A stretch of 64,000 nt of DNA from Nitzschia sp. pyKryTriq1 (Eukaryota; Bacillariophyta; Bacillariophyceae; Bacillariales; Bacillariaceae). The stretch is taken from the NCBI GenBank assembly GCA_956465555.1, contig OY101117.1, positions 2,666,001-2,730,000 of the forward strand, written 5' to 3'. The notes below the pieces were generated by a model, which saw only the letters and a list, made by a program, of their open reading frames with translations, made no database searches and was not told the origin of the DNA. Shown here one piece after another: positions 22,543 to 60,259 of the stretch. The first letter of the stretch is position 1. The number at the start of each line of letters is the position of its first letter. Both the position numbers and the translations under genes were made by a program.

Positions 22543-23236
22543 TAATAATGAAATAATCGTGCGTGTAGACGGCGCCAATTCCATCATCACTACAAACCGC
22601 ATGAATGACTGGCATTGAAGTGTTTCTGTACCTGCGGTCGGTACAGAACAAGTACAAGTACTGTCAGAATTCTGCAGGATTCTGTTCTACGCGGGTGATT
22701 TGGTAGAACCGATCCCTATGTATGTACTTTCTCTCGACTTTTAGTAGCAGGGATTACGAGTACTGTAGTAAATTCGCACTCCTCCTCCCTCTACTCTACT
22801 AGTAGTAGTACGACGACTACAGGTACCGGTATTATCTACGAGCTGAGTAAATATTTATGTCGACCAGCGAGCGTTTGCACAAGTAAGATCCCTTGGGAAT
22901 AACGCTTTATTTCATGATTTCATTTTCTTCCTGTGTTATTTTTATTGCAAAGTTGGGCCAAACACTTGGTTTAAACCAGGTTTTTGACTCGTCGTGCAGT
23001 ACCCAAGCAAAGGAAGGTACATTCTCCCCAATAAAGATGGACCCGTTCGCTTTTTTGTTGCTCGCGTGTTGAAGATGCGAAAAGAAATCTGTGTCACGAC
23101 TCGTACGTTGAAGTTTCCGCACGACTACCTGGGAATTCTACTATCAGCTACATACAGCAGTATCGACAATATTGCTCAAGGGGGCATGTATCCTCGGGGC
23201 GGAAGAGAAGGGTTAAACACCGACTTGATTAGAGTA
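22543..23236. other. Intergenic, left flank of the DNA transposon
   Basis: The stretch carries GTAC/CTAG palindromes (22620-22830) and no convincing gene. An 89-codon frame at 22994 runs into the transposon end and shows no protein features. Confidence 0.5.
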
Positions 23237-23276
23237 CCTCACAGCGGGAAGGTTACGGAATAAGGGCGGGACAAGG
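23237..23276 (+). repeat. Left terminal inverted repeat (40 bp)
   Basis: It begins CCTCACAGCGGGAAGGTTAC and is the exact reverse complement of 30163-30202. The inner end runs into the first GGGCGGGACAA motif. Confidence 0.93.
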
Positions 23277-23545
23277 CAGCGTTGTCCCGCCCCCCGTCCC
23301 GCCCTTGTCCCGCCGGCGGGACAGTGCTGACGTTTTGATATTTTTCCATGTCGTACATGACGTGTCACCCGTTGTCCCGCCCTTGTCCCGCCCTCGTCCC
23401 GCCCCTATTCCGCCCTTCTTTTTTGAGATCTATTTCAGTACCTTTTTTGGAAACAAAAGGCCTCCCGCTTCCCGGGGCGGAAATTGGGCGGTACAAACAA
23501 CCTGTTGTCCCGCCCTTATTCCGCCCATTCCCGCAAATTACCGTT
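23264..23545. repeat. Left subterminal repeat array (GGGCGGGACAA / TTGTCCCGCCC)
   Basis: About ten copies or near-copies of TTGTCCCGCCC or its complement are packed here, mostly as TTGTCCCGCCC. Related forms are TATTCCGCCC and CGTCCCGCCC. The density contrasts sharply with the AT-rich surroundings. By analogy with En/Spm these are probably transposase or accessory-protein binding sites. Confidence 0.85.
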
Positions 23546-23702
23546 ATCCAAAATTTTGTTCCTCAGGGCTTATCAAATATAACCCTATTTTTAACTGTAA
23601 GTGATGATGTCTCTTAGAGGACAGAACAATGTACAATCCTACTGTATTCCCGTACGGGAACGCAGCGCGCTCTCAATCTTTGGCGCCCCCGGTCGCATAT
23701 AA

Positions 23703-23778
23703 TAGGATTCAACACAATTCCCAACGTAGGGTAAATTCTGCAAAATTTACCCTACGTTGGGAATTGTGTTGAATCCTA
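23703..23778. repeat. Perfect 35-bp hairpin with 6-base loop
   Basis: 23703-23737 and 23744-23778 are exact reverse complements, separated by CTGCAA. The arms begin TAGGATTCAACACAATTCCC. A perfect foldback this long inside the transposon, 130 bases before the transposase gene, is too long for chance. It could be a nested small palindromic element, a source of small RNA, or an extra recognition structure. Confidence 0.9.
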
Positions 23779-23911
23779 CAGCGCTCCTGGATATTATATT
23801 TTCACAACCAACAACAATAACAAACTATACTAATACAATCAACCTATTTCCTGACCGAAAACATATCCCACCGCACGTGCGTATTACGATCAGTATTGTC
23901 ATTCCATCATC

Positions 23912-26900
23912 ATGATGGACGACGATCACCTGATATCCCTGGTCCCACCCGATACTCTTTTTTGTTTCTGCTGCCCCAATCGGGTACCACTACGAAAATT
24001 CGATAAACAAACTGATCCCGATATCCTTCAGATATCATCGTTGGACCAAATCAACGAACCACCCAATTCTCTTATACAGAATTTTGTAGTTGCGATCTGC
24101 ACTCATTGCAGCAAAAGCTTACCCATCCTTATCTGCACTCTTTGTCATCGTCGGTCCAAACGGGGCAATTTTATGACTAATAAACACCTGCAAGTTTTTA
24201 CATGGCTCAAGAAACATGTCACGGAGGACGTGCATGTCAGGAGGCGTAACGCCCCAGACGCAGAAGACGACACTAACTTCAATGATGATTCCGAGGACGA
24301 AGGACTACCCTTTATCCGCTCCTCCTTTCCTGAAACTTTTGGTATGACTGCGCCAATGGCCAATTTCTTCGAACGAGAAAGGTATTCCCCCAATTCGGGG
24401 ATACGGTTCCTTGTTGCCAAAGCCTTTGACCTTGACGATCTCTCCCCGGCCATCCTTCAGGACAGGCTGCAACGCCCCGAGATCCACCACCACCTGCAAA
24501 CTACACTATTCTGCATATCCCTAACGCGATCCATGCAGAATACCTTTGGAGAAATTCTGTCAGCGATTCCCCCTCATTATTCTGAGACGATGGAGACTCG
24601 TCGTCAATATTTGAACTCTGTCCTCGATCTTATCCTGGCTGATGCCTCTGCATCTCTGACGTCCTCCGAGTCAGTTAGGATTGGCTCTATCCTCCGAAGA
24701 TCCTCCAATAATGTCTTTCATGGTTCGCTCCCGGTACCCCAGCAATCCTCAGAGTCACACCCGTCCATTTTCCAGATCACCAATCCCGCTATTTCAGTTG
24801 CCCAAGTCCAGACTTATTATCTTCGATCCACGAAGTCCATATATGGGAACATTCCCGCACCTTCCGTGCACATGACTGCCGACCGCAGCCATGCTTATGT
24901 CCACGCCAAAGAGATTTGTTCTTTCTTTTTTGCCTGCAGGTTCGAGTCGCTCATTGCCCCCTCTTACGATATAGTCACCGAATCCATCCAGTCTAAGAAG
25001 ATCCCTTCCTTTCATCAGAGTCCCAAGGCCTACGAGATCCTTCAAGGCCTTGGGACTGATACACGTTCATCTACCCTTACTATTTTTATCAAGGAGTGGT
25101 CGGATGACGCCCAAAAGAATCATGGGCAGCGCAGCAACAACTTGCTTTCATTTAATTTGAGGACGATAACCTTCCTAACACCGGGAAAGAACGGCGATCC
25201 ACGACTTTACACTTTCGTGCTCTCCTTGAGCCTAAAAGGTCAGGATCATTCGGAAGTCGAGAAGATCCTCCACGATGAACTACGCGAACTACGCCAACCA
25301 CACGTCTACTTCTCAGGCCACCACCAGCGTTGGTTTCGTGGCACCGTCCACCTCGTTGCTGGCGTCCGAGATCGGCCCGCCACTGGGGAAGCTACTGGAC
25401 TAGGTGCCCAAAATTCCACTTTCGGCAAGAGGATGCGATTCGCAGCATTGCTTGACTCGCATACAGATGGTTTCCTATCCTGCAAGTACTGCTATCTTGC
25501 CCGGCGCAAGTACCTCAACCGACATCCTAGCCTTGGTCGGGACAAGTGGTCTCTGTCTCTTCTCAAGTTCAACGCGTTTTGTTCACGCTGCATGGATCTG
25601 GAATATGTCCGCGAACATGACGCCTCTCAAATTCTCATGTTGGACGGTGCTGTGGTTGCTTCTGATGAGGAGAATGCTATTGATGGAACAACTGTATTTG
25701 TCCCCCTCGACTTCTCGGATGATAAGTCACCGGTCGCGTCTCTCGTGTATCGCGCATACTCTCCTTCTCTCGCTGTGCCCATTCATTATAACGAAAAGTG
25801 GCAGTACCCAACGCGCCTCGCGGTTGGGTCGCCCCCAACCCCTGCTCACAGGCCAGTAGGACCGATGGTCTCCATGATTGAACCCATGGAGCTGCGTTAT
25901 GATCTCCTGAAACAAGCATTCCGTGTCGCTGTATACAACTACCACAGTAGGTCTTGGAATAAGACCGAAACTCGAACGTATCTTAAAACAATGGCTGTCA
26001 ACAACGCTGTTACCGAGTCTTTGTTTGAGCTCTCACGCTCTATGTCTGGTAGGCCTGCCTCGGAGGTTGCCGATTCGTCTTCCAGCATCATGCCCACGCT
26101 GTGGCATCGCACCGACATTGGCCATGATCTCCCGATGGAACTTGAAGCGGTCTTTCATTGTGTACACCACGGGGTGACAATGAACACTAAAGATGTGCTT
26201 GAATTGGTGTTTCGTGAAATGGGAATCAGAAGCGAAGTGTCTTCCCTGTGGAACGACTTGCTTCTTGGTGTCAAAGATTTACAGCAGGATTACCTCCAAG
26301 TCCTCCAGTTCGGCATGAGAACAGAAGACTCTGAATATTTCAAAACGACAGGGTGGATCGGCACCCACAAGGTCGGATTGCTACGCGTGCTACCGTACTT
26401 GATGGCTGCCGTCCCGGGTACTAGCGAGCTGTTCGATCTTGCATGCGAAACTGTTATCTCACTCTTTTGTTTTGTTAGCAGATTTCTAACTTTGGAAGTA
26501 TGCGAGCAGGTTGTGTTTGAATGCAATGAATACGCGAAGCACTTCATTTGCAATTTGACGAACCTAGAAATGCGATGCGGTACCCCTCCTTCCTATTTAG
26601 CAACAGGAAATGTCACCAGTCTCTTGAACATCCCGGGCATTCTCGAGAGATACGGGTCCATGAGATTCTTCTGGGACCTGATCGACGAAAAGGCTGTGCA
26701 GAAAATCAAAGGCCAACTTTCAAATCTGAACATGACATCTGACAGCTGGCTCTCAGCCATACTAGAACAAGTCACAAAAAGACAAGCGCTACAGATGGTA
26801 TCCGTCGACTTTTCACTGACTGATGATGACTACGATAATCCCGAAGAGAAACGACGCTTCCGATTGTTTCGTCTTCCGTTACTACCGGCAGATCTAGATC

Positions 26901-27013
26901 AATTTGGAAATAGACCGTTCAATGTCCTACATCATTGCGGAAGGCAGAATGTCAAGATCGGATATATGTATTATATCCACCCACGAAAAATAATAATAGA
27001 AGAGACAACCTAA
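23912..27013 (+). CDS. Putative DDE-type transposase of CACTA/Plavaka-like type
   Basis: The 1033-residue protein starts with an N-terminal Cys cluster (C18, C20, C21, then C63/C66 and C75/C78), a likely zinc-binding module, and an acidic linker near 118-130. Its core has WSDDAQKNHGQRSNN (D398/D399), which resembles the WSD or YSD-DTQ segment holding the first catalytic Asp in CACTA and Plavaka transposases. About 115 residues on comes FAALLDSHTDGFLSCKYC (D515, D519, C524/C527), like the family's second Asp followed by a CxxC. DLPMELEAVFHCVHHG (739-754) matches the position and pattern of their conserved D-x-MH...G block. The family placement is an inference from motif order; I cannot name a close relative. 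It stands first in the element, followed by the accessory gene 240 bases downstream. Confidence 0.7.
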   Translation: MMDDDHLISLVPPDTLFCFCCPNRVPLRKFDKQTDPDILQISSLDQINEPPNSLIQNFVVAICTHCSKSLPILICTLCHRRSKRGNFMTNKHLQVFTWLKKHVTEDVHVRRRNAPDAEDDTNFNDDSEDEGLPFIRSSFPETFGMTAPMANFFERERYSPNSGIRFLVAKAFDLDDLSPAILQDRLQRPEIHHHLQTTLFCISLTRSMQNTFGEILSAIPPHYSETMETRRQYLNSVLDLILADASASLTSSESVRIGSILRRSSNNVFHGSLPVPQQSSESHPSIFQITNPAISVAQVQTYYLRSTKSIYGNIPAPSVHMTADRSHAYVHAKEICSFFFACRFESLIAPSYDIVTESIQSKKIPSFHQSPKAYEILQGLGTDTRSSTLTIFIKEWSDDAQKNHGQRSNNLLSFNLRTITFLTPGKNGDPRLYTFVLSLSLKGQDHSEVEKILHDELRELRQPHVYFSGHHQRWFRGTVHLVAGVRDRPATGEATGLGAQNSTFGKRMRFAALLDSHTDGFLSCKYCYLARRKYLNRHPSLGRDKWSLSLLKFNAFCSRCMDLEYVREHDASQILMLDGAVVASDEENAIDGTTVFVPLDFSDDKSPVASLVYRAYSPSLAVPIHYNEKWQYPTRLAVGSPPTPAHRPVGPMVSMIEPMELRYDLLKQAFRVAVYNYHSRSWNKTETRTYLKTMAVNNAVTESLFELSRSMSGRPASEVADSSSSIMPTLWHRTDIGHDLPMELEAVFHCVHHGVTMNTKDVLELVFREMGIRSEVSSLWNDLLLGVKDLQQDYLQVLQFGMRTEDSEYFKTTGWIGTHKVGLLRVLPYLMAAVPGTSELFDLACETVISLFCFVSRFLTLEVCEQVVFECNEYAKHFICNLTNLEMRCGTPPSYLATGNVTSLLNIPGILERYGSMRFFWDLIDEKAVQKIKGQLSNLNMTSDSWLSAILEQVTKRQALQMVSVDFSLTDDDYDNPEEKRRFRLFRLPLLPADLDQFGNRPFNVLHHCGRQNVKIGYMYYIHPRKIIIEETT

Positions 27014-27095
27014 TTGCGTTTGTGTTGTCCCGCCCCTGTCCCGCCCAAGCCTATCTAAACGCTCACTGTCCCGCCCATCTCCCGCCCCAACCATG
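27014..27095. repeat. Internal GTCCCGCCC cluster between the transposon genes
   Basis: Four to five copies of (T)GTCCCGCCC/TCCCGCCCC lie in the spacer between the two transposon genes, in the same orientation as most left-end copies. They may let the element's own binding protein regulate the second gene. The regulatory role is inferred. Confidence 0.7.
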
Positions 27096-27251
27096 TGCAT
27101 ATTACCGCACACCGCCCTCCATTCAAAAAACAAAGCTCCCCAGCATCCCGCACTCTCCGCATCCGCATTCATTATCAGAATAATAGCTGCGCAGAGCTTA
27201 CACCGTCATTTTGTTGCCATTTTGTTGCCTCATCATTATATTTGCATTATC

Positions 27252-29699
27252 ATGGATCTCCGTCCAACCTACGATTGGACGGATGCCTTCTACGGCGGGA
27301 CAGGAAGATTGCAGACTGTTCTTTGTCCTGAGAATGAAATGCACGAGGTGTGTGACGATTCCACTCTTACGCAGAGTATGTTACCACCGCCCTGTGCCGC
27401 ACCACCGCATCCCGCAACCCATAGTAATAGTCTTGCGCAAGACACATCTCTAACACCAAGTGCTAATGGCGAAAAGAGTATTGTACTAACCCAGTACATG
27501 ACTCAGGGGGAGCCAACAGGGTTGCCTGTGTGCAAGTACGCCCCGTATGAGTTGTTCTCCCTTCTACCACAAAAAGCCTGCCAATACGTCAACAACGTCG
27601 TCACCGCTGCCGGTAACACGAAGTTTGCATATCTGGAACCAATGGTGAATGCTACCGGTACCAGTGCTCCAGCCCGTACCTTATTGAAGCCGATGCCCGC
27701 CAATCTATTCTCGGTGGGGTCGACAAAGGGTGTATCCCTCATTGACAAATCACTGGTCAAGGAGGCATGGCCATACGTAAAGCATCTCTTCAATGATGAG
27801 CGATACTCTGAGTGGTCCGACACAAGGGAGATTGAGGTGATAGCAAAGATACACAAAATCAGAGACGCTATGAGGGTGGACTATGACTCTCTTCTAAAAG
27901 AGTCTATCCGACTCTTTGTTGAACAGTATTGGCTGATCAGTCCTGGGACTATTAACTATGTCCCAAGGAACCAAAATGGTTTGGTTTCATTCGAGGATGC
28001 GCTGTTGCGGATCGCAGACACGTCCCCAAAAGACCCCTCGGACATCTGTGTAACCATGTTGTACATGTTGGGGTACCAACATGACGACCCTCAATTCAAG
28101 AACTCCCCCCTCGATGTGGAGAGATTTAGCGAGATGTATCTCAACTCGTATGGATTGACTCTAGTCTGGTCGGAGGACCAAAATCATGGCGACATCGCCA
28201 CGATGAACAAGGCACTGAGGACATGGTACTCGAACAACACTAGAAATTTAAAAAGCATGTTGAGCCATGTTCGCTCCAAGAGCGTTGCAAGGCCCATAAA
28301 TGTGGCCCTGTCAGGAAGGGGCTACCATTTGAAGGTACGAAGGGGCAAACGGGGAACCTCCAGCACGTGGCTGGAGGTTACCGTGGGCTCGTCTTCAAAA
28401 TCTAAATATTGGGTCATTGCAGGGCCCGACCCAGAGACGAAGTCCCGATCCCATAAAAGGAAACCCCACCAGGACCAGGACGGAGGCCAAGAGGGGGAGC
28501 GGGTACAGCGGGTTGGGACGGCACCATCCCTATTCGACAAGGCAGAAAGAATGCTGGCACTTGTACCCATGTCAAGTAGGGAGGAGGTGCAGGAGGTGGC
28601 TGCACTCCTCCTTCGTGCATGGGACGACGCCAGAAATATTAATAGTAACAGAAGTACAGGGGAAGGAAGAGATGATTGTACTGCCGGCGCCGGCGCCAGC
28701 AATACCAGCAGTACACCGGAAGGTACAACTATTATTACTACCAGTACCGCGGGTACACGGGAACGACATGGACGAGATGCGACTGCTACTACTACCACTA
28801 TCGACACGACACTTGGAGGACAAGATGCAACGAACAACACGACACGTGGGCAACAAGATGCAACTGCTGCCACCAACGACTCGACACACGAACGAGATGC
28901 AACTGCTAGTACTGAAAGTAGTACCACTGTCGCCAGTGCGAGTGGCGACAACAACAACATCACACTATTAATTGAAAGAGAGAGAAAAAGATTGGAGGAG
29001 TTGAAAGACAAGGAAGAGGAAGAGAAGAGAACGAGGGCGGAGCAGGAGCAGAGAGAGTTGAAAGCAAAAGAGGAGGCGGAAAAACGGGAGGCAGAGCGGG
29101 AGCGGAGAGACAAGGAAGAGAAAAAGCGGGAGCAGGAGAGGGGGAAGGCAGAGAAAGAAAGAAAGAAAGCAGTAAAGGAAAGAAAGAAAGCAGAAAAAGA
29201 TCTGGAAAAACGGAAGGCGGAGCGGGAGCGGAGAGACAAGGAAGAGGAAAAGCGGGAGCAGGAGAGAAGAGACAAGGAAGAGAAGGAGCGGGAGAAGAAT
29301 AAGAAGACAGCGGAGCAGAGGCAGAGGGATAAGGAAGAGAATGAGCGGGAGAAGGAGAGGAAGGAGAAGGCAGAGCAAGATAAGAAGAAGAAGGAATCTA
29401 GTAAAGCTCTCAAGGGGGGAGGCAAACGGAAGATGAATTTGGATTTGCCCATCACTCGAAAAAGTGGGAGAGAAAAAAGATCCAAAGTTATTATCGACGG
29501 CTGCAATTGCAATTCGGATTGGATCTTGGTGAACGAACCATCGAGAAGGGATTTAGTCAAGAGAGGTATGTCCGAGAACGAATACAAGACTTGTTGTATT
29601 TGTGGGATCAAAAAAAGACCCACAAAGGAGACGCCATTCCACTATTGTGGTGGTTGTCTTCTGGTAAAGTGGTGTGCAGCCTGCTGGGCGGGCAAGTAA
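27252..29699 (+). CDS. Transposon accessory protein: coiled coil plus C-terminal zinc motif
   Basis: The 815-residue protein starts at MDLRPTYDWTDAFYGG (27252). The N-terminal ~430 residues look globular. A Thr/Ser/Asn-rich low-complexity linker follows (about 465-570), then a long charged Glu/Lys/Arg segment built of ERERRDKEE-type repeats (about 575-715) that must be helical. The tail has a basic stretch (GGGKRKMNLDLPITRKSGREKRSK) and a Cys-rich end: CNCNSDW, CCICGIKK, HYCGGC, WCAACW, probably binding two zinc ions. In CACTA elements the second gene product (TNPA-like) binds subterminal repeats and may dimerise; the basic/zinc tail and coiled coil fit such a role. No homology to TNPA is visible, so the function is inferred from position and layout. 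Confidence 0.68.
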   Translation: MDLRPTYDWTDAFYGGTGRLQTVLCPENEMHEVCDDSTLTQSMLPPPCAAPPHPATHSNSLAQDTSLTPSANGEKSIVLTQYMTQGEPTGLPVCKYAPYELFSLLPQKACQYVNNVVTAAGNTKFAYLEPMVNATGTSAPARTLLKPMPANLFSVGSTKGVSLIDKSLVKEAWPYVKHLFNDERYSEWSDTREIEVIAKIHKIRDAMRVDYDSLLKESIRLFVEQYWLISPGTINYVPRNQNGLVSFEDALLRIADTSPKDPSDICVTMLYMLGYQHDDPQFKNSPLDVERFSEMYLNSYGLTLVWSEDQNHGDIATMNKALRTWYSNNTRNLKSMLSHVRSKSVARPINVALSGRGYHLKVRRGKRGTSSTWLEVTVGSSSKSKYWVIAGPDPETKSRSHKRKPHQDQDGGQEGERVQRVGTAPSLFDKAERMLALVPMSSREEVQEVAALLLRAWDDARNINSNRSTGEGRDDCTAGAGASNTSSTPEGTTIITTSTAGTRERHGRDATATTTTIDTTLGGQDATNNTTRGQQDATAATNDSTHERDATASTESSTTVASASGDNNNITLLIERERKRLEELKDKEEEEKRTRAEQEQRELKAKEEAEKREAERERRDKEEKKREQERGKAEKERKKAVKERKKAEKDLEKRKAERERRDKEEEKREQERRDKEEKEREKNKKTAEQRQRDKEENEREKERKEKAEQDKKKKESSKALKGGGKRKMNLDLPITRKSGREKRSKVIIDGCNCNSDWILVNEPSRRDLVKRGMSENEYKTCCICGIKKRPTKETPFHYCGGCLLVKWCAACWAGK

Positions 29700-29827
29700 T
29701 ATATTAGGCCGGGGGATGAGAGCGGGGAAGGGTTGTAGTAGAAATCTATACTAGTATACGAATGAATGTTGCTATATTACTGGTACCACTAATAATAGTT
29801 CGTCGTTGTAGGACTCGTTCGACCCAA

Positions 29828-30162
29828 GAGGGGCGGGACAAGGGCGGGACGGGGGGCGGGACGGGGGGCGGGACAAGGGCGGGACGGGGGGCGGGACAGG
29901 GGCGGGATAACAGTACAGAACCGTTATATAAAAGGGGAAAGAAGGGCGGGACAGCGGCGGGACAAGGGGCGGGACAAGGGAAAATGTACGGCCTATAGAG
30001 GCTATTTGGGCGGAAGAAGGGCGGGACAACAGGAACTGTGGGGTCAAGGGCGGGACAAGGGTCCGCAAAAGGCCGTGTTGACGTGTCAAATGGCCTCTCA
30101 AAAAATCGCGAGGGGCGGGACAACGCCGGGACAAGGCATATATAAGAACTGTTTTTAGCGAT
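29828..30162. repeat. Right subterminal repeat array (GGGCGGGACAA)
   Basis: A dozen or more GGGCGGGACAA or GGGCGGGAC(G/A)GG units, now mostly in the opposite orientation to the left array, cover this end up to the terminal repeat. The two arrays are therefore inverted relative to each other, as expected for functional subterminal binding regions. A TATATAA string at about 30138-30144 is also present. Confidence 0.87.
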
Positions 30163-30202
30163 CCTTGTCCCGCCCTTATTCCGTAACCTTCCCGCTGTGA
30201 GG
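30163..30202 (-). repeat. Right terminal inverted repeat (40 bp)
   Basis: It is the exact reverse complement of 23237-23276. It ends 107 bases before the proposed MsrA start codon. Confidence 0.93.
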
Positions 30203-52359: not shown

Positions 52360-52972
52360 GTAAAGACTCTATACCGAGGGTGGGTGCGATGACACTAATA
52401 TATTCTTGCTACCTTTATCGGGAGGTCCTCCAAAATTGTCATGGTCATGGTGTGGAATGAAATAATTACGATTTACGATACAGGATACAGATCATACTTG
52501 ACTGCTGTACCTGGTACCGGAAACGGTACGTACCTGGTACTGGTAGTGCACAATAATACGGTATGATACCGGTAACAGATTCAGATTTGAAATCTGAAAT
52601 CTGAAATGGATCGAAAAAGTCGAAGGGGTCGAAAAAAATTGAGTTGCGCAGGCGCGCGCCCCCCAGAGTGTCCGAAAATGAATGTTACTGTACTGTATGT
52701 CCGGGTTGGTCCGATCGACAGGGGAGGACGGATAGACGGACTGCAGGGTTGACATGCAATGCTGCTGGTACGCAGACGAGAAATTTAGATAGAGTATTTT
52801 ACGCAGACGACTTTATTAGACATACAATTAATCAGACTCGTTGCGCAGACGAGATTTTTAGCTGCATGCGAAATTTCCCTCCAATGCTTCGGCCATCACG
52901 GATTCCCACCATGACGACCACCCATTACTGTTATTATCATCATCAAACTCGTACCTACCCTATTGCCATACA
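52360..52972. other. Intergenic, transition to mobile-element region
   Basis: It contains a run of GTACC/GGTAC palindromes (52500-52575). A short GCGCAGGCGCGCG string at 52646-52658 superficially resembles the terminal palindrome of the repeats at 9.4 and 59 kb. GCAGACGA recurs four times at 52770-52855 (for example ACGCAGACGAG, TACGCAGACGAC, TGCGCAGACGAG), a small dispersed direct repeat. Confidence 0.45.
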
Positions 52973-54097
52973 ATGAAGAAGAATCATGGCGGAAAGCGCA
53001 ATGGCTCAGGTCGTCCGACCAAAGCAGCAACTCACGGGACACGCCCAGCAAGGGGGCTGCAGCCCATTCATAATTTCTTCGTAGCTCCCGCCTCAAGTAC
53101 AAGTAATAACACAACAAGTATTGCTACGAACACTATGGGCAATGCACCATCTGATGAACAAGTAGAGCCTTTCACCGAGGCGGAGGAGGAGAGAGGCGAG
53201 CGGCTTGCCGGGTCTCTCTCAGAAGACGAGGATGACGGTGAAGATGAAGTGATCCAAGACTTCAACGACCCCTCAACGAAGCTCTCCGGTCTACTGCGGG
53301 AAGCCATGGACAAAGTGAATAGCGCAAACAAGAGTACCAAGAAAATCAACAGTAAATTGCAACAAAAGGGTCTTTTGTGGTCCTATGCAGTCCAGGATTT
53401 TGTGCCACCCAACACAATCCCGCAAGAAAGTCTACAAAGTAGCTGGAAGCGATTCTATGGATATGATGTGTTTACGTGGCGGCCGGATCTGTTGATTGGC
53501 GGCTGGAAACCAGCCTGTATTGAATGTGGAAAGAAAGATCAGGTTGGCCCACATGTGTACGAACGGGACCCTCGATTGGTCTATGGCATCAAGCGAAACT
53601 ATATCTTGAATAGCCCTATACAATGGGGTGCTCGATGTTGCGGCAAGTATTTTAATAGTCATGATCCTTTGGTTCTGGATCAGCTACAGATGGAGTATCC
53701 GGGGGTGCGCAGCCTATTTCCATGTGAGATGGGTTGGAGGTCGGCCATCGACAACGACCTGCTGGAGCTGTTGTTTGCAGCTGCGGACTCAGGCATGGGT
53801 CCCACCTCCGTCCAAGGTTTTGTCATGAATCAGCACTATCATTTCTTCGAACACCTTGCACGGATTGGGCACCACCACCGCCCACAAGCCAGCAGACCTT
53901 CCGCTATCTCCAGTAATGATGCCGACACCTCCACCCCCACCAGTAATGATGCCTCCGCCTCCGCCCCCCCCGCCGCCTCCTCTTCTGCCCCCACCAGTAA
54001 TGATGATGCGGATGATGCCACCTCCCAAGCGACGGAAAATGGTTTGCCAGAAATGTTTGAATGGGGCCTGCAAGCGGCCATTCAACAAATCTGGTAA
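52973..54097 (+). CDS. Mobile-element protein N-terminal part (DUF6729-like zinc domain)
   Basis: The 374-residue frame starts MKKNHGGKRNGSGRP, a basic head typical of large transposon proteins. The middle contains a Cys-rich module: PACIECGKKDQVGPHVYERDPRLVYGIKRNYILNSPIQWGARCCGKYFNSHDPLVLDQL, the CxxC...YxIxxxxYxCxxC layout that I associate with DUF6729 of transposon-like proteins. Downstream the reading becomes low-complexity. In another frame (53856-54107) a proline-rich stretch ends VCQKCLNGACKRPFNKSGKC, a CxxC motif expected later in such proteins, so a frameshift or an intron separates the two; a donor-like GTAAGTG lies at 54094. No catalytic domain follows. I take it as the truncated start of a transposon gene. 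Confidence 0.6.
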   Translation: MKKNHGGKRNGSGRPTKAATHGTRPARGLQPIHNFFVAPASSTSNNTTSIATNTMGNAPSDEQVEPFTEAEEERGERLAGSLSEDEDDGEDEVIQDFNDPSTKLSGLLREAMDKVNSANKSTKKINSKLQQKGLLWSYAVQDFVPPNTIPQESLQSSWKRFYGYDVFTWRPDLLIGGWKPACIECGKKDQVGPHVYERDPRLVYGIKRNYILNSPIQWGARCCGKYFNSHDPLVLDQLQMEYPGVRSLFPCEMGWRSAIDNDLLELLFAAADSGMGPTSVQGFVMNQHYHFFEHLARIGHHHRPQASRPSAISSNDADTSTPTSNDASASAPPAASSSAPTSNDDADDATSQATENGLPEMFEWGLQAAIQQIW

Positions 54098-54114
54098 GTG
54101 CGTGTGATATTGTA

Positions 54115-54435
54115 AGAAATAATGTCTATTACTAGCGCTATCGCGTGATATTGTCTGAAACAAATGTCTATTACTAGCGCTATCGCGTGATATTGTATGG
54201 AGGGTCCGCCCCAACGGCGCTATGGGTTTGGCCTATGGCTGCACGGTGGGGACGGACCGTATCCTCTTGATGCTGTTGTTGTTGTTGTTGTTGTCAATAT
54301 GTACGTACGGGCATCGAGAGGAGGGTCCGCCCCAACGGCGCTATGGGTTTGGCCTATGGCTGCACGGTGGGGACCGACCGTATCCTCTTGATGCTGTTGT
54401 TGTTGTTGTTGTTGTTGTTGTTCTCAATATGTACG
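54115..54435 (+). repeat. Two pairs of direct repeats in decayed mobile element
   Basis: The first pair is two copies of a ~37-base unit (TGTCTATTACTAGCGCTATC...) at 54121-54196. The second is a ~120-base direct duplication (units starting GGAGGGTCCGCCCCAACGGC at 54199 and 54321), each ending in a (GTT)n tract. The (GTT)n lengths differ, and one base differs in the shared GGGGAC(G/C)GACCG. Confidence 0.8.
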
Positions 54436-54953
54436 TACGTGTACCACCGCGCAAAGAAATAAAATAAAAGAAAAAAGTATTTGTCGAGAATGTGTCGCTT
54501 CGCCGCCGTAGAAAAATGTACCATGTCCTACGATGCAACCACATCGCGGCGATGAGGATGATGATCATTTTCTTCGTAGAATTTCCGCGCGTGCTATCGC
54601 GTGAAAGATTTCTTTTTCGAGTGGTGCTATCGCGAGAAATGGGCGTCGCCGGCAAGAATTTCAATAGGTTATGAAGCCTACAGAATTTTTTTCCCGCGCT
54701 CACGCGCGGAAATCAAGTTGCCGTCCAGCAGCACGGAATTTTCGCCGACTGCAGAGTGCTGAGCTGCATGACATTGACAACTCTTGAAACTCTTCTCCTA
54801 AATACTGTACCTTAAAACAGCTAATTTAACGGATAACTACGGGGGAATTAGTAGAGGAGAACATTTCTCCAATTCCTTAGTCCACGATAAGCGATAGCTC
54901 TAGCCGCAGAGTAGTAGTAATCTAATAATAATAATAATAATAAAATAATAATA

Positions 54954-58820: not shown

Positions 58821-59214
58821 GCTCTAACGATCACTCTTTTCCGGAATAGAATACAAAGGACGAGTACGAGTACAGTATTTTGTAGGCAGCCTGCTGGTGA
58901 AAGCTGGAACTAAACAAGATGTATTGGATGTTTTCAGGTTTTTGTGTCATGATGTGTCATTGCTTGCATGCTGCTGCCGCTTGCGTCTTGCTTCGTTCAA
59001 AACTCGGATTTTCCGCGATCGCCCCGGTTTCTTGGGAACGAAACGGTCGAATGAGTCGTCACTCGTGAGTGAGCGCGCGAGCCAGTCGTCGAGCGTCCGT
59101 CGTCAAGAAGTCGTCGTTCTTGTCCGGCGGTTTCGTTCGTTCCAAAGAGGTAACGGTACTGACTTAGTTTTAATCTGGAATCGACTACTCTGATCTTGCG
59201 ATCGCTGCGTATTG
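58821..59214. other. Intergenic, PIF1 promoter
   Basis: No gene is seen. CGTCG-rich sequence around 59060-59120 borders the repeated element that begins at 59215. Confidence 0.45.
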
Positions 59215-60259
59215 GCGCAGGCGCCAACAAACCCTCAACTCTCTCGGACACTGTAGACCGATGGTATAGTACTGTTAGTGAAATAATTTTCGTTGGCCTA
59301 TGCCCCTGATCGATTCCGATTTGCGTAGCAGGATCGTCCTCTCTCGGGGATACCCTTGGGTACATCTCCTTGCCTCGTCCTTGTCAAGGTGTGAAGGGAT
59401 GGCGGGCGGGTTTTTAAAGCTAATTAATCTAGAATTCTGAAGTTGGGATTTGCGATACCGAGGTTGACTCGATGATCTTATGAGGTTCATCGGTCGTCTC
59501 TCTTGGTATCGGTTTCGGGTTTGGGTGTTCGTTCGACTTCTTGTCTGTCCTTCGTTCGTTGGGGGTGGCCATGGCGCAGGCGCCAACAAACCCTCAACTC
59601 TCTCGGACACTGTAGACCGATGGTATAGTACTGTTAGTGAAATAATTCGTTGGCCTATGCCCCTGATCGATTCCGATTTGCTCCAGTGGGCTGGATCACT
59701 GCCCCCGGGATCTTCCTTATCGCGCTTGTCGGGATGGGCATGGCGAATCCGTGTTCGATATCCTTAGCTATCAACTTTTGGACCTCGTCCATGTTCTCAT
59801 CCGCTGACTTGTGGTTTCCGTATTCGAGTGCCAGCTGCAGGTCCTCGAGTCTTAAGGTAATGTTGTGGACGAATTTGACTTCTCCTTCGTTCAAGGCTAC
59901 CAACATTGTGGCGTCTCCACCTGAGGCTGCTACCTCGAGCTTCATCGTTTCGGTTGTTGTGTTGTTCGTCGGTTCGAGATTGTCGAGTGGCCCTTCCGAT
60001 TTCGCCTTCGCCCATGATCCTTCCTGTTGGATCCGCTCCTGGAGGAAATCCTTCCACTTCGGGTTACTAGGTTGCGCCATTGAATGGTTTGAAAGTGGCT
60101 TTTAAAGCTAATTAATCTAGAATTCCGAAGTTGGGATTTGCGATACCGAGGTTGACTCGATGATCTTATGAGGTTCATCGGTCGTCTCTCTTGGTATCGG
60201 TTTCGGGTTTGGGTGTTCGTTCGACTTCTTGTCTGTCCTTCGTTCGTTGGGGGTGGCCA
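59215..60259 (-). mobile_element. Two head-to-tail truncated copies of one mobile element
   Basis: On the minus strand each copy reads: a 160-bp 5' segment (59412-59571 and 60100-60259, nearly identical), a variable body, and a ~110-bp 3' segment (59215-59324 and 59574-59681, nearly identical) ending in the palindrome GGCGCCTGCGCC. The body is 87 bp in one copy and 418 bp in the other. The longer body contains an open frame; the shorter looks internally deleted. The 3' segment recurs at 9421-9542. I see no terminal inverted repeats or LTRs. Conserved ends with variable middles suggest a non-autonomous family; the class is undetermined. Confidence 0.7.
59655..60080 (-). pseudogene. Truncated retroelement ORF inside the repeated element
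   Basis: The 141-residue frame starts at MAQPSNPKWKDFLQERIQQEG, just downstream of the 160-bp 5' segment. It ends IAKDIEHGFAMPIPTSAIRKIPGAVIQPTGANRNRSGA. The DIEHGFAMPIP..AIRKIPGAVIQP piece resembles the stretch that lies just upstream of the reverse transcriptase in some retroelement polyproteins of marine protists, where a block reading like 'IEYGFxLPL...IPG' precedes the RT fingers. The catalytic part is missing, so this is a fragment. Start and end coincide with the repeated flanks. Confidence 0.5.

Follow-up and report, generated by a model that had tools for sequence, protein, structure and literature searches.

A two-gene DNA transposon, probably of the EnSpm-like kind, in the genome of the diatom Nitzschia sp. 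pyKryTriq1

Introduction

EnSpm-like transposases share motifs with RAG1 and Transib, and the helper proteins of EnSpm-like elements are diverse and poorly understood. Here we describe a transposon with two open genes from a stretch of 64,000 nucleotides of Nitzschia sp. pyKryTriq1 (GenBank assembly GCA_956465555.1, contig OY101117.1, positions 2,666,001 to 2,730,000), which we call the window, and we compare it with the closest described systems and with the rest of the genome, comprising 40.65 Mb in 20 contigs (C1, C3 and so on; the window lies on C3). In En/Spm, TNPD is described as cutting; transposition also requires TNPA, a protein that attaches to the subterminal repeats and is able to control its own activity, and the same role may be filled by helpers that show little similarity to TNPA (PMC2613891). 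Elements of the CMCT group, as far as the accessible text goes, mostly share CA..TG ends, target duplications of 2-5 bp and the motifs C(2)C and H(3-4)H, whereas the duplications of hAT, Zisupton and Kyakuja are 7-8 bp long (PMC12730594).

The element resembles the plant En/Spm (CACTA) elements En-1/Spm, Tam1 and Tgmt* in having terminal inverted repeats (TIRs) that start with CA, asymmetric inverted subterminal arrays, a transposase-like gene accompanied by a second gene or product, internal-deletion derivatives and a weak match to PF02992. It differs from them in its two separate open frames in place of mosaic transcripts, in a putative helper that matches no known family, and in a perfect TIR of 37 bp, compared with 13 bp and imperfect in Tgmt* (PMC2613891, in the part available). 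ESTA, an EnSpm-like element of fungi with TA duplications that we compare by its description only (PMC12730594), shares the 2-bp length, with TA at the copy of our family on contig C6 and conditionally at that on C12; here TT also occurs, the window copy has the flanks CT/AG, and no TET/JBP gene was recognised. CNEST and CNIRT6 of Cryptococcus and Sly1-1 of Neurospora, known from partial texts (PMC12139950, PMC4592977), are divergent CMC elements recognised by their DDE core. Sly1-1 has, like our element, C(2)C and a second gene of unknown function, but differs in having H(3)H; the homologous gene pair of Chaetomium is divergently transcribed, whereas both genes run in the same direction here, and CNIRT6 ends in CACTG rather than CACAG (same sources). 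EnSpm-type elements have also been reported in the diatom Cyclotella cryptica (PMC7466962) and the brown alga Ectocarpus (PMC12477816), for which the available parts of the reports give classification, counts and sizes and describe no element of the present structure. The searchable literature on diatom CACTA/EnSpm elements and DNA transposons, which covers few subscription papers and not Repbase, likewise yielded no description of such an element.

Results

Ends, target sites and family copies

We found a perfect inverted repeat of 40 nt at 23237-23276 and 30163-30202, which the earlier note on this DNA had taken as 40-bp TIRs. Because four other copies found in the genome start at exactly 23240, we set the TIR at 37 bp and the element at 23240-30199, and the outer CCT/AGG, three bases on each side, is, judging from these copies, flanking DNA that pairs by chance. 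The TIR pattern (≤3 mismatches) occurs 13 times genome-wide, twice in the window and 11 times outside it, compared with 0 occurrences of the reversed control, and the termini are CACAG...CTGTG in 4/4 copies with both ends complete.

We compared ten further places in the genome with the element, nine of them by inspecting part of the sequence and the one on C11 from the match table only (Table 1). The tail of gene 2 is also present in the C6, C12 and C1 copies, while its first 382 aa were matched, genome-wide, in the window copy only. The C6 derivative fuses part of gene 1 to the gene 2 tail, the C12 copy has pieces of gene 2 between both ends, and the derivatives on C6, C12, C1 and C9, the last a miniature inverted-repeat transposable element (MITE), retain the end-adjacent repeat arrays and have lost most of both genes. 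These copies, deletion derivatives and the MITE support a young, mobile two-gene DNA transposon. The copy search suggested in the earlier note thus returned a young family, with an identical 5' half, derivatives, a MITE and single ends; the description of a complete, young element holds for youth, whereas completeness has to be qualified, as the window copy lies on a junction that is treated below. In the C14 copy, the DNA past the break is unique in the genome and the open frame continues beyond the break (1132 codons open).

The window flanks come from different contexts, as they would if the two TIRs were separate small elements flanking ordinary genes. This reading is contradicted by the derivatives on C6, C12 and C1, which combine left-end and right-end pieces of the same element, and we regard it as extremely improbable. 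Since the derivatives join these left and right pieces, they point to one ancestral element that had both ends and both genes in the present order.

When examining the flanks, from which the earlier note expected the target duplication to emerge, we observe 2-bp duplications at the C6 copy (TA/TA) and the C9 copy (TT/TT) and none at the window copy, and the C12 copy reads TA/TA only if its eroded left end has lost exactly CA. Duplications of 2 bp are present in 2/4 copies with complete ends (chance of at least 2/4, 0.02) or in 3/5 when the eroded C12 end is counted (chance of at least 3/5, 0.002, by the same formula). No copy agrees at the 3 bp of canonical CACTA elements (C6 CTA/TAG, C9 CTT/TTG). 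These flanks weakly suggest insertion with a 2-bp target duplication. With CACAG ends in place of CACTA/TAGTG and duplications of 2 bp rather than 3 bp, the element is not a canonical CACTA element (En/Spm sensu stricto).

Subterminal repeat arrays

GCGGGAC occurs 26 times in the element on both strands, whereas 300 dinucleotide shuffles averaged 0.81 occurrences and never exceeded 5; in the remaining 57 kb of the window it appears 3 times, and GGCGGGACA is absent. Of the copies in the left non-coding end 7/9 lie on the minus strand and in the right end 12/13 on the plus strand, which agrees with the inverted subterminal arrays described before and with those of canonical CACTA elements; a further cluster of 3 copies lies between the genes, beyond what had been noted. 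Among same-strand neighbours of GGGCGGGACA (≤2 mismatches) less than 80 bp apart, 18/26 steps measure 11 or 12 bp, roughly a single turn of the DNA helix, although this spacing was not compared with shuffles and may partly reflect tandem duplication, which weakens it as support for a helper that reads phased sites.

By analogy with TNPA, the gene 2 protein is likely to be the binder of the GGGCGGGACA repeats. The alternative, in which a host factor mainly binds the repeats and gene 2 does something else, such as silencing escape, draws on the core GGCGGGA, which is present throughout the arrays, on GCGGGAA in the TIR itself, and on a gene 2 protein with no recognised DNA-binding domain. We take this core to resemble an E2F site, which would presumably tie transposon expression to S phase. 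We nevertheless consider this alternative unlikely, given that each end has an array, with many of the repeats spaced by 11-12 bp, and that the derivatives keep the end arrays but lose most of both genes, as expected of transposase or helper sites.

The transposase-like protein and classification

Both genes are open over their whole length, as previously described, and encode 1033 and 815 aa; among 200 mononucleotide shuffles no open stretch was longer than 273 codons, the maximum reached. When the gene 1 protein was searched in segments, PF02992 (En/Spm tnp2) was the top match in 4/6 overlapping segments covering aa 453-540 (E=0.024, 0.024, 0.030, 0.038), at about 14 bits versus a curated cut-off of 28.6. 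Among the other segments of the two proteins, which include neither aa 351-384 of gene 1 nor the ER/K stretch in gene 2, 0/18 had any family below 0.05. We weigh the PF02992 match as moderate support, because the family had been named beforehand and the location fits, the candidate C(2)C (C524-x2-C527) lying within the match and 37 residues past D487, provided that D487 is the second Asp. We presume an RNase-H fold with catalytic residues, of which D398 or D399 and E926 are our tentative assignment from the tnp2 pattern.

Several observations weigh against an EnSpm-like transposase. One 331-aa segment gives PF02992 at 0.11, behind T5orf172, and one 241-aa segment does not give it, while T5orf172 reaches nearly equal E-values (0.034-0.094) in all 6 segments. 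The whole gene 1 protein has no match in Pfam, NCBIfam, PHROGs or PDB sequences, and the AlphaFold model of aa 370-960 from the single sequence was unusable (predicted local distance difference test score, pLDDT, 35). The C-terminal alignment to tnp2 that yields E926 is not significant in a pairwise test, and H(3-4)H is not at its expected place: if E926 is right, these positions read T902/N906 in that alignment, and another H-x3-H of gene 1 is at 749/753. One may speculate that, if E926 is right, the second CxxC (557/560) completes the zinc site in place of H(3-4)H. There is also no target duplication at the C1 copy (CC/GC) or at the window copy (CT/AG).

These points leave some room, though in our judgement not much, for gene 1 to be a DDE transposase of another or new superfamily (KDZ-, Kolobok-, hAT-like or unnamed) whose En/Spm likeness is convergent or due to chance, as would fit a PF02992 match that is below its cut-off and nearly equalled in E-value by T5orf172, an H(3-4)H missing from its expected place, the CACAG ends and the 2-bp duplication. 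Set against this, PF02992 is the family that had been predicted, its match lies where the D2-C(2)C region should be, and none of the 18 other segments gives a match below 0.05; CA..TG ends combined with a short duplication agree with CMCT, whereas hAT, Zisupton and Kyakuja have duplications of 7-8 bp (PMC12730594, as far as available). Of the CMCT features, CA..TG ends, a candidate C(2)C and, at some copies, 2-bp duplications are present and H(3-4)H is apparently absent. We therefore favour, with reasonable confidence, a recently active cut-and-paste DNA transposon of EnSpm-like (CMC/CMCT) kind that would work with a helper. The CACTA/En-Spm logic proposed earlier is borne out in the layout (CA ends, inverted arrays, two genes) and faintly in PF02992 (E=0.024-0.038), whereas a canonical CACTA element is not what we find, and a relation of gene 1 to En/Spm tnp2 is weakly shown by these profile matches.

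Profile searches of the genome with PF02992 and PF13960 found no canonical CACTA element that could serve as a yardstick, a weak negative since PF02992 matched 0/14 control genomes and PF13960 1/14 (Haloferax, below cut-off). Relatives outside the genome were absent from viral contigs, genome contigs and phage records, collections without eukaryotes that have no bearing on novelty.

The accessory protein

Gene 2 had been described as encoding a long ERERRDKEE coiled coil. We find that aa 574-720 are 78% charged with 4.8% VILMFWY, that i/i+4 pairs carry opposite charges in 63 cases versus like charges in 27, and that hydrophobic residues occupy at most 9.5% of the a/d positions in any heptad register. 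Because of this charge pattern and the few hydrophobic a/d positions, the stretch is by composition an ER/K-type single alpha-helix and not a coiled coil, no heptad pattern being present. A basic stretch resembling a nuclear localisation signal and then the Cys/His tail lie C-terminal of it. In the tail, C781, C784, H797, C799, C802, C808 and C811 are kept in the C12 and C1 copies; the upstream CxC and C782 are lost in the diverged C1 copy.

No family match to gene 2 was obtained in Pfam, PDB sequences or the segment searches, apart from weak NCBIfam and RPEL matches, the latter in the tail at E=0.25. The NCBIfam matches, to RNase E (E=0.003), a lipase (0.018) and TrlF (0.43), were rejected because they are far below the cut-offs and fall on the charged region and on low-complexity sequence that precedes it. 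The Cys/His tail gave 13 weak matches among PDB sequences, to eL43 ribosomal proteins and CRIPT (best E 0.045), and its structure prediction from a three-row alignment was rejected (pLDDT 43). We considered a likeness of the tail to piggyBac-type Cys-rich tails and do not claim it.

Proposed mechanism

We propose that gene 1 would encode a DDE transposase with an RNase-H fold, which would cleave at the CACAG...CTGTG termini and integrate the element through a staggered cut of 2 bp. The gene 2 helper may bind the phased GGGCGGGACA repeats of the two terminal arrays and those before its own gene, and could pair the ends of the element, the part that TNPA plays in En/Spm, while the middle repeat cluster at its own promoter would let it tune its own expression; the 22-nm ER/K helix would be a rigid spacer between the N-terminal domain and the Cys/His tail. 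DNA binding, synapsis and autoregulation by gene 2 are suggested by analogy. As a low-copy family that is young, with one apparently complete copy, clean derivatives and a short motif, the element offers a compact system for helper-mediated end pairing. More tentatively, and with considerable doubt, it could represent a separate algal CMCT lineage, in which the C2H2 zinc site of the RAG1/Transib/CACTA type would be replaced by two CxxC pairs (C524/C527 and C557/C560), the stagger is 2 bp, and an unrelated helper with a 22-nm single alpha-helix measures out and bridges arrays phased with the DNA helix.

The junction at the right edge

A search with the joined flanks found the left flank only in place and the right flank also at C1:3840265, where the match begins with the very base that follows the element (window 30200). 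Contig C3 beyond the element and C1 from 3840265 look, from their alignment, like two versions of one chromosome arm. The near-identical versions of this 0.9-Mb arm are window 30200-64000 (C3:2696200-3612244) and C1:3840265-4741679, that is, 916 kb on C3 beyond the element and 901 kb on C1. Over the stretch read they are colinear, with 194 mismatches in 49,729 aligned bases, which are denser near the junction (54 in 4.6 kb), and a few kilobase-size indels. Identity at sampled points is 98% at +400 kb and 100% near the contig ends; both contigs run out within one shared sequence, which C1 follows for about 0.1 kb more, and telomere repeats are missing from the final 0.6 kb of either contig. At 3840265, C1 has no element, and the 1 kb to the left is unique in the genome.

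Since the right flank is, from its first base, the start of the C1 arm with allele-like identity, the window copy lies on a junction, which would explain its missing target duplication and is the reason for the caveat on completeness. We think it rather probable that the window copy is an assembly chimera, in which the C3 left flank and one copy are joined to the right part of another copy, coming from the second haplotype of the C1 arm. The colinearity with C1 from 3840265, the shared contig ends without telomere repeats, the absence of the element at the C1 junction with its unique 1 kb to the left, and the lack of a target duplication at the window copy argue for a chimera. The two genes that are open across the whole element speak against it, and the same picture would arise from a genuine translocation or a break-induced copy that began at a transposon end, which is possible; Ac/Ds alternative transposition is reportedly comparable to such a rearrangement. 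As the origin of the junction, we consider a haplotig misjoin across the repeat more likely than a real rearrangement. If the junction is an assembly error, it serves as a warning that the window copy may be a chimera; if it is real, it is a documented case of an arm duplication of 0.9 Mb that is bounded by a transposon end.

Other features of the window and coordinates

Kilobase-size insertions separate the two arm versions at window 52750-54747 and 59213-60259 and at C1 ~3844896-3849642. The insertion near 53 kb is probably another mobile element, because parts of it recur on C3, C5 and C9.

Table 1. Features of the element in the window and its further copies in the genome
Feature	Position	Strand	Remarks
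Whole element	23240..30199	+	6,960 bp, termini CACAG...CTGTG; based on the start of copies on other contigs at 23240 and on TIR ends
Left TIR	23240..23276	+	37 bp
Right TIR	30163..30199	-	37 bp, perfect inverted copy of left TIR
Left subterminal array of TGTCCCGCCC	23283..23526	-	mostly minus strand, many 11-12 bp steps
Nested palindrome	23703..23778	.	76 bp, near-perfect, bounded by TA on either side; shared by the C14 and C6 copies and in part by C12
Gene 1, transposase-like protein	23912..27013	+	1033 aa, one open frame; truncated copies on C14 and C6
KEWSDD, candidate first catalytic Asp (D398 or D399)	25091..25108	+	presumed assignment
Weak PF02992 (En/Spm tnp2) match, aa 453-543	25268..25540	+	holds candidate D487 and C524-x2-C527
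Second CxxC pair, C557-x2-C560	25580..25591	+	
E926, tentative catalytic Glu	26687..26689	+	from tnp2 pattern; pairwise test weak
Third repeat cluster, between genes	27026..27087	-	possible operator of gene 2
Gene 2, accessory protein	27252..29699	+	815 aa; upstream ATG at 27093 would give 868 aa
ER/K-type single alpha-helix, aa 574-720	28971..29411	+	assuming full helicity, ~22 nm long (147 x 0.15 nm)
Cys/His tail, aa 751-815	29502..29696	+	CxC..CxxC..HxCxxC..CxxC
Right subterminal array of GGGCGGGACA	29831..30133	+	many 11-12 bp steps
C14 copy (L026)	C14:507912		left 3,695 bp, 0 mismatches, then break inside gene 1
C6 copy (L027)			2,325-bp internal-deletion derivative; 3 mismatches plus gaps over two aligned pieces
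C12 copy (L028)			derivative of ~1.3 kb; left TIR eroded
C1 copy (L029)			diverged derivative, 1,326 bp
C9 copy (L030)			335-bp MITE: right 311 bp (0 mismatches) closed by second TIR
C3 (L031)	C3:1748769		one recognisable end
C15 (L032)			one recognisable end
C13 (L033)			one recognisable end
C10 (L034)			decayed end; 79% over 109 columns
C11 (L035)			50-bp match only, 88%

The nested palindrome, which is also present at L006, L007 and L008, has no loop and entered the transposon before the transposon spread. Related palindromes occur elsewhere in the genome, and since they share the same bases on one flank, the palindrome may belong to a larger repeat. To the left of the transposon, an open reading frame at window 22994-23263 extends into its left end; the insertion or the junction may have interrupted a host gene here.

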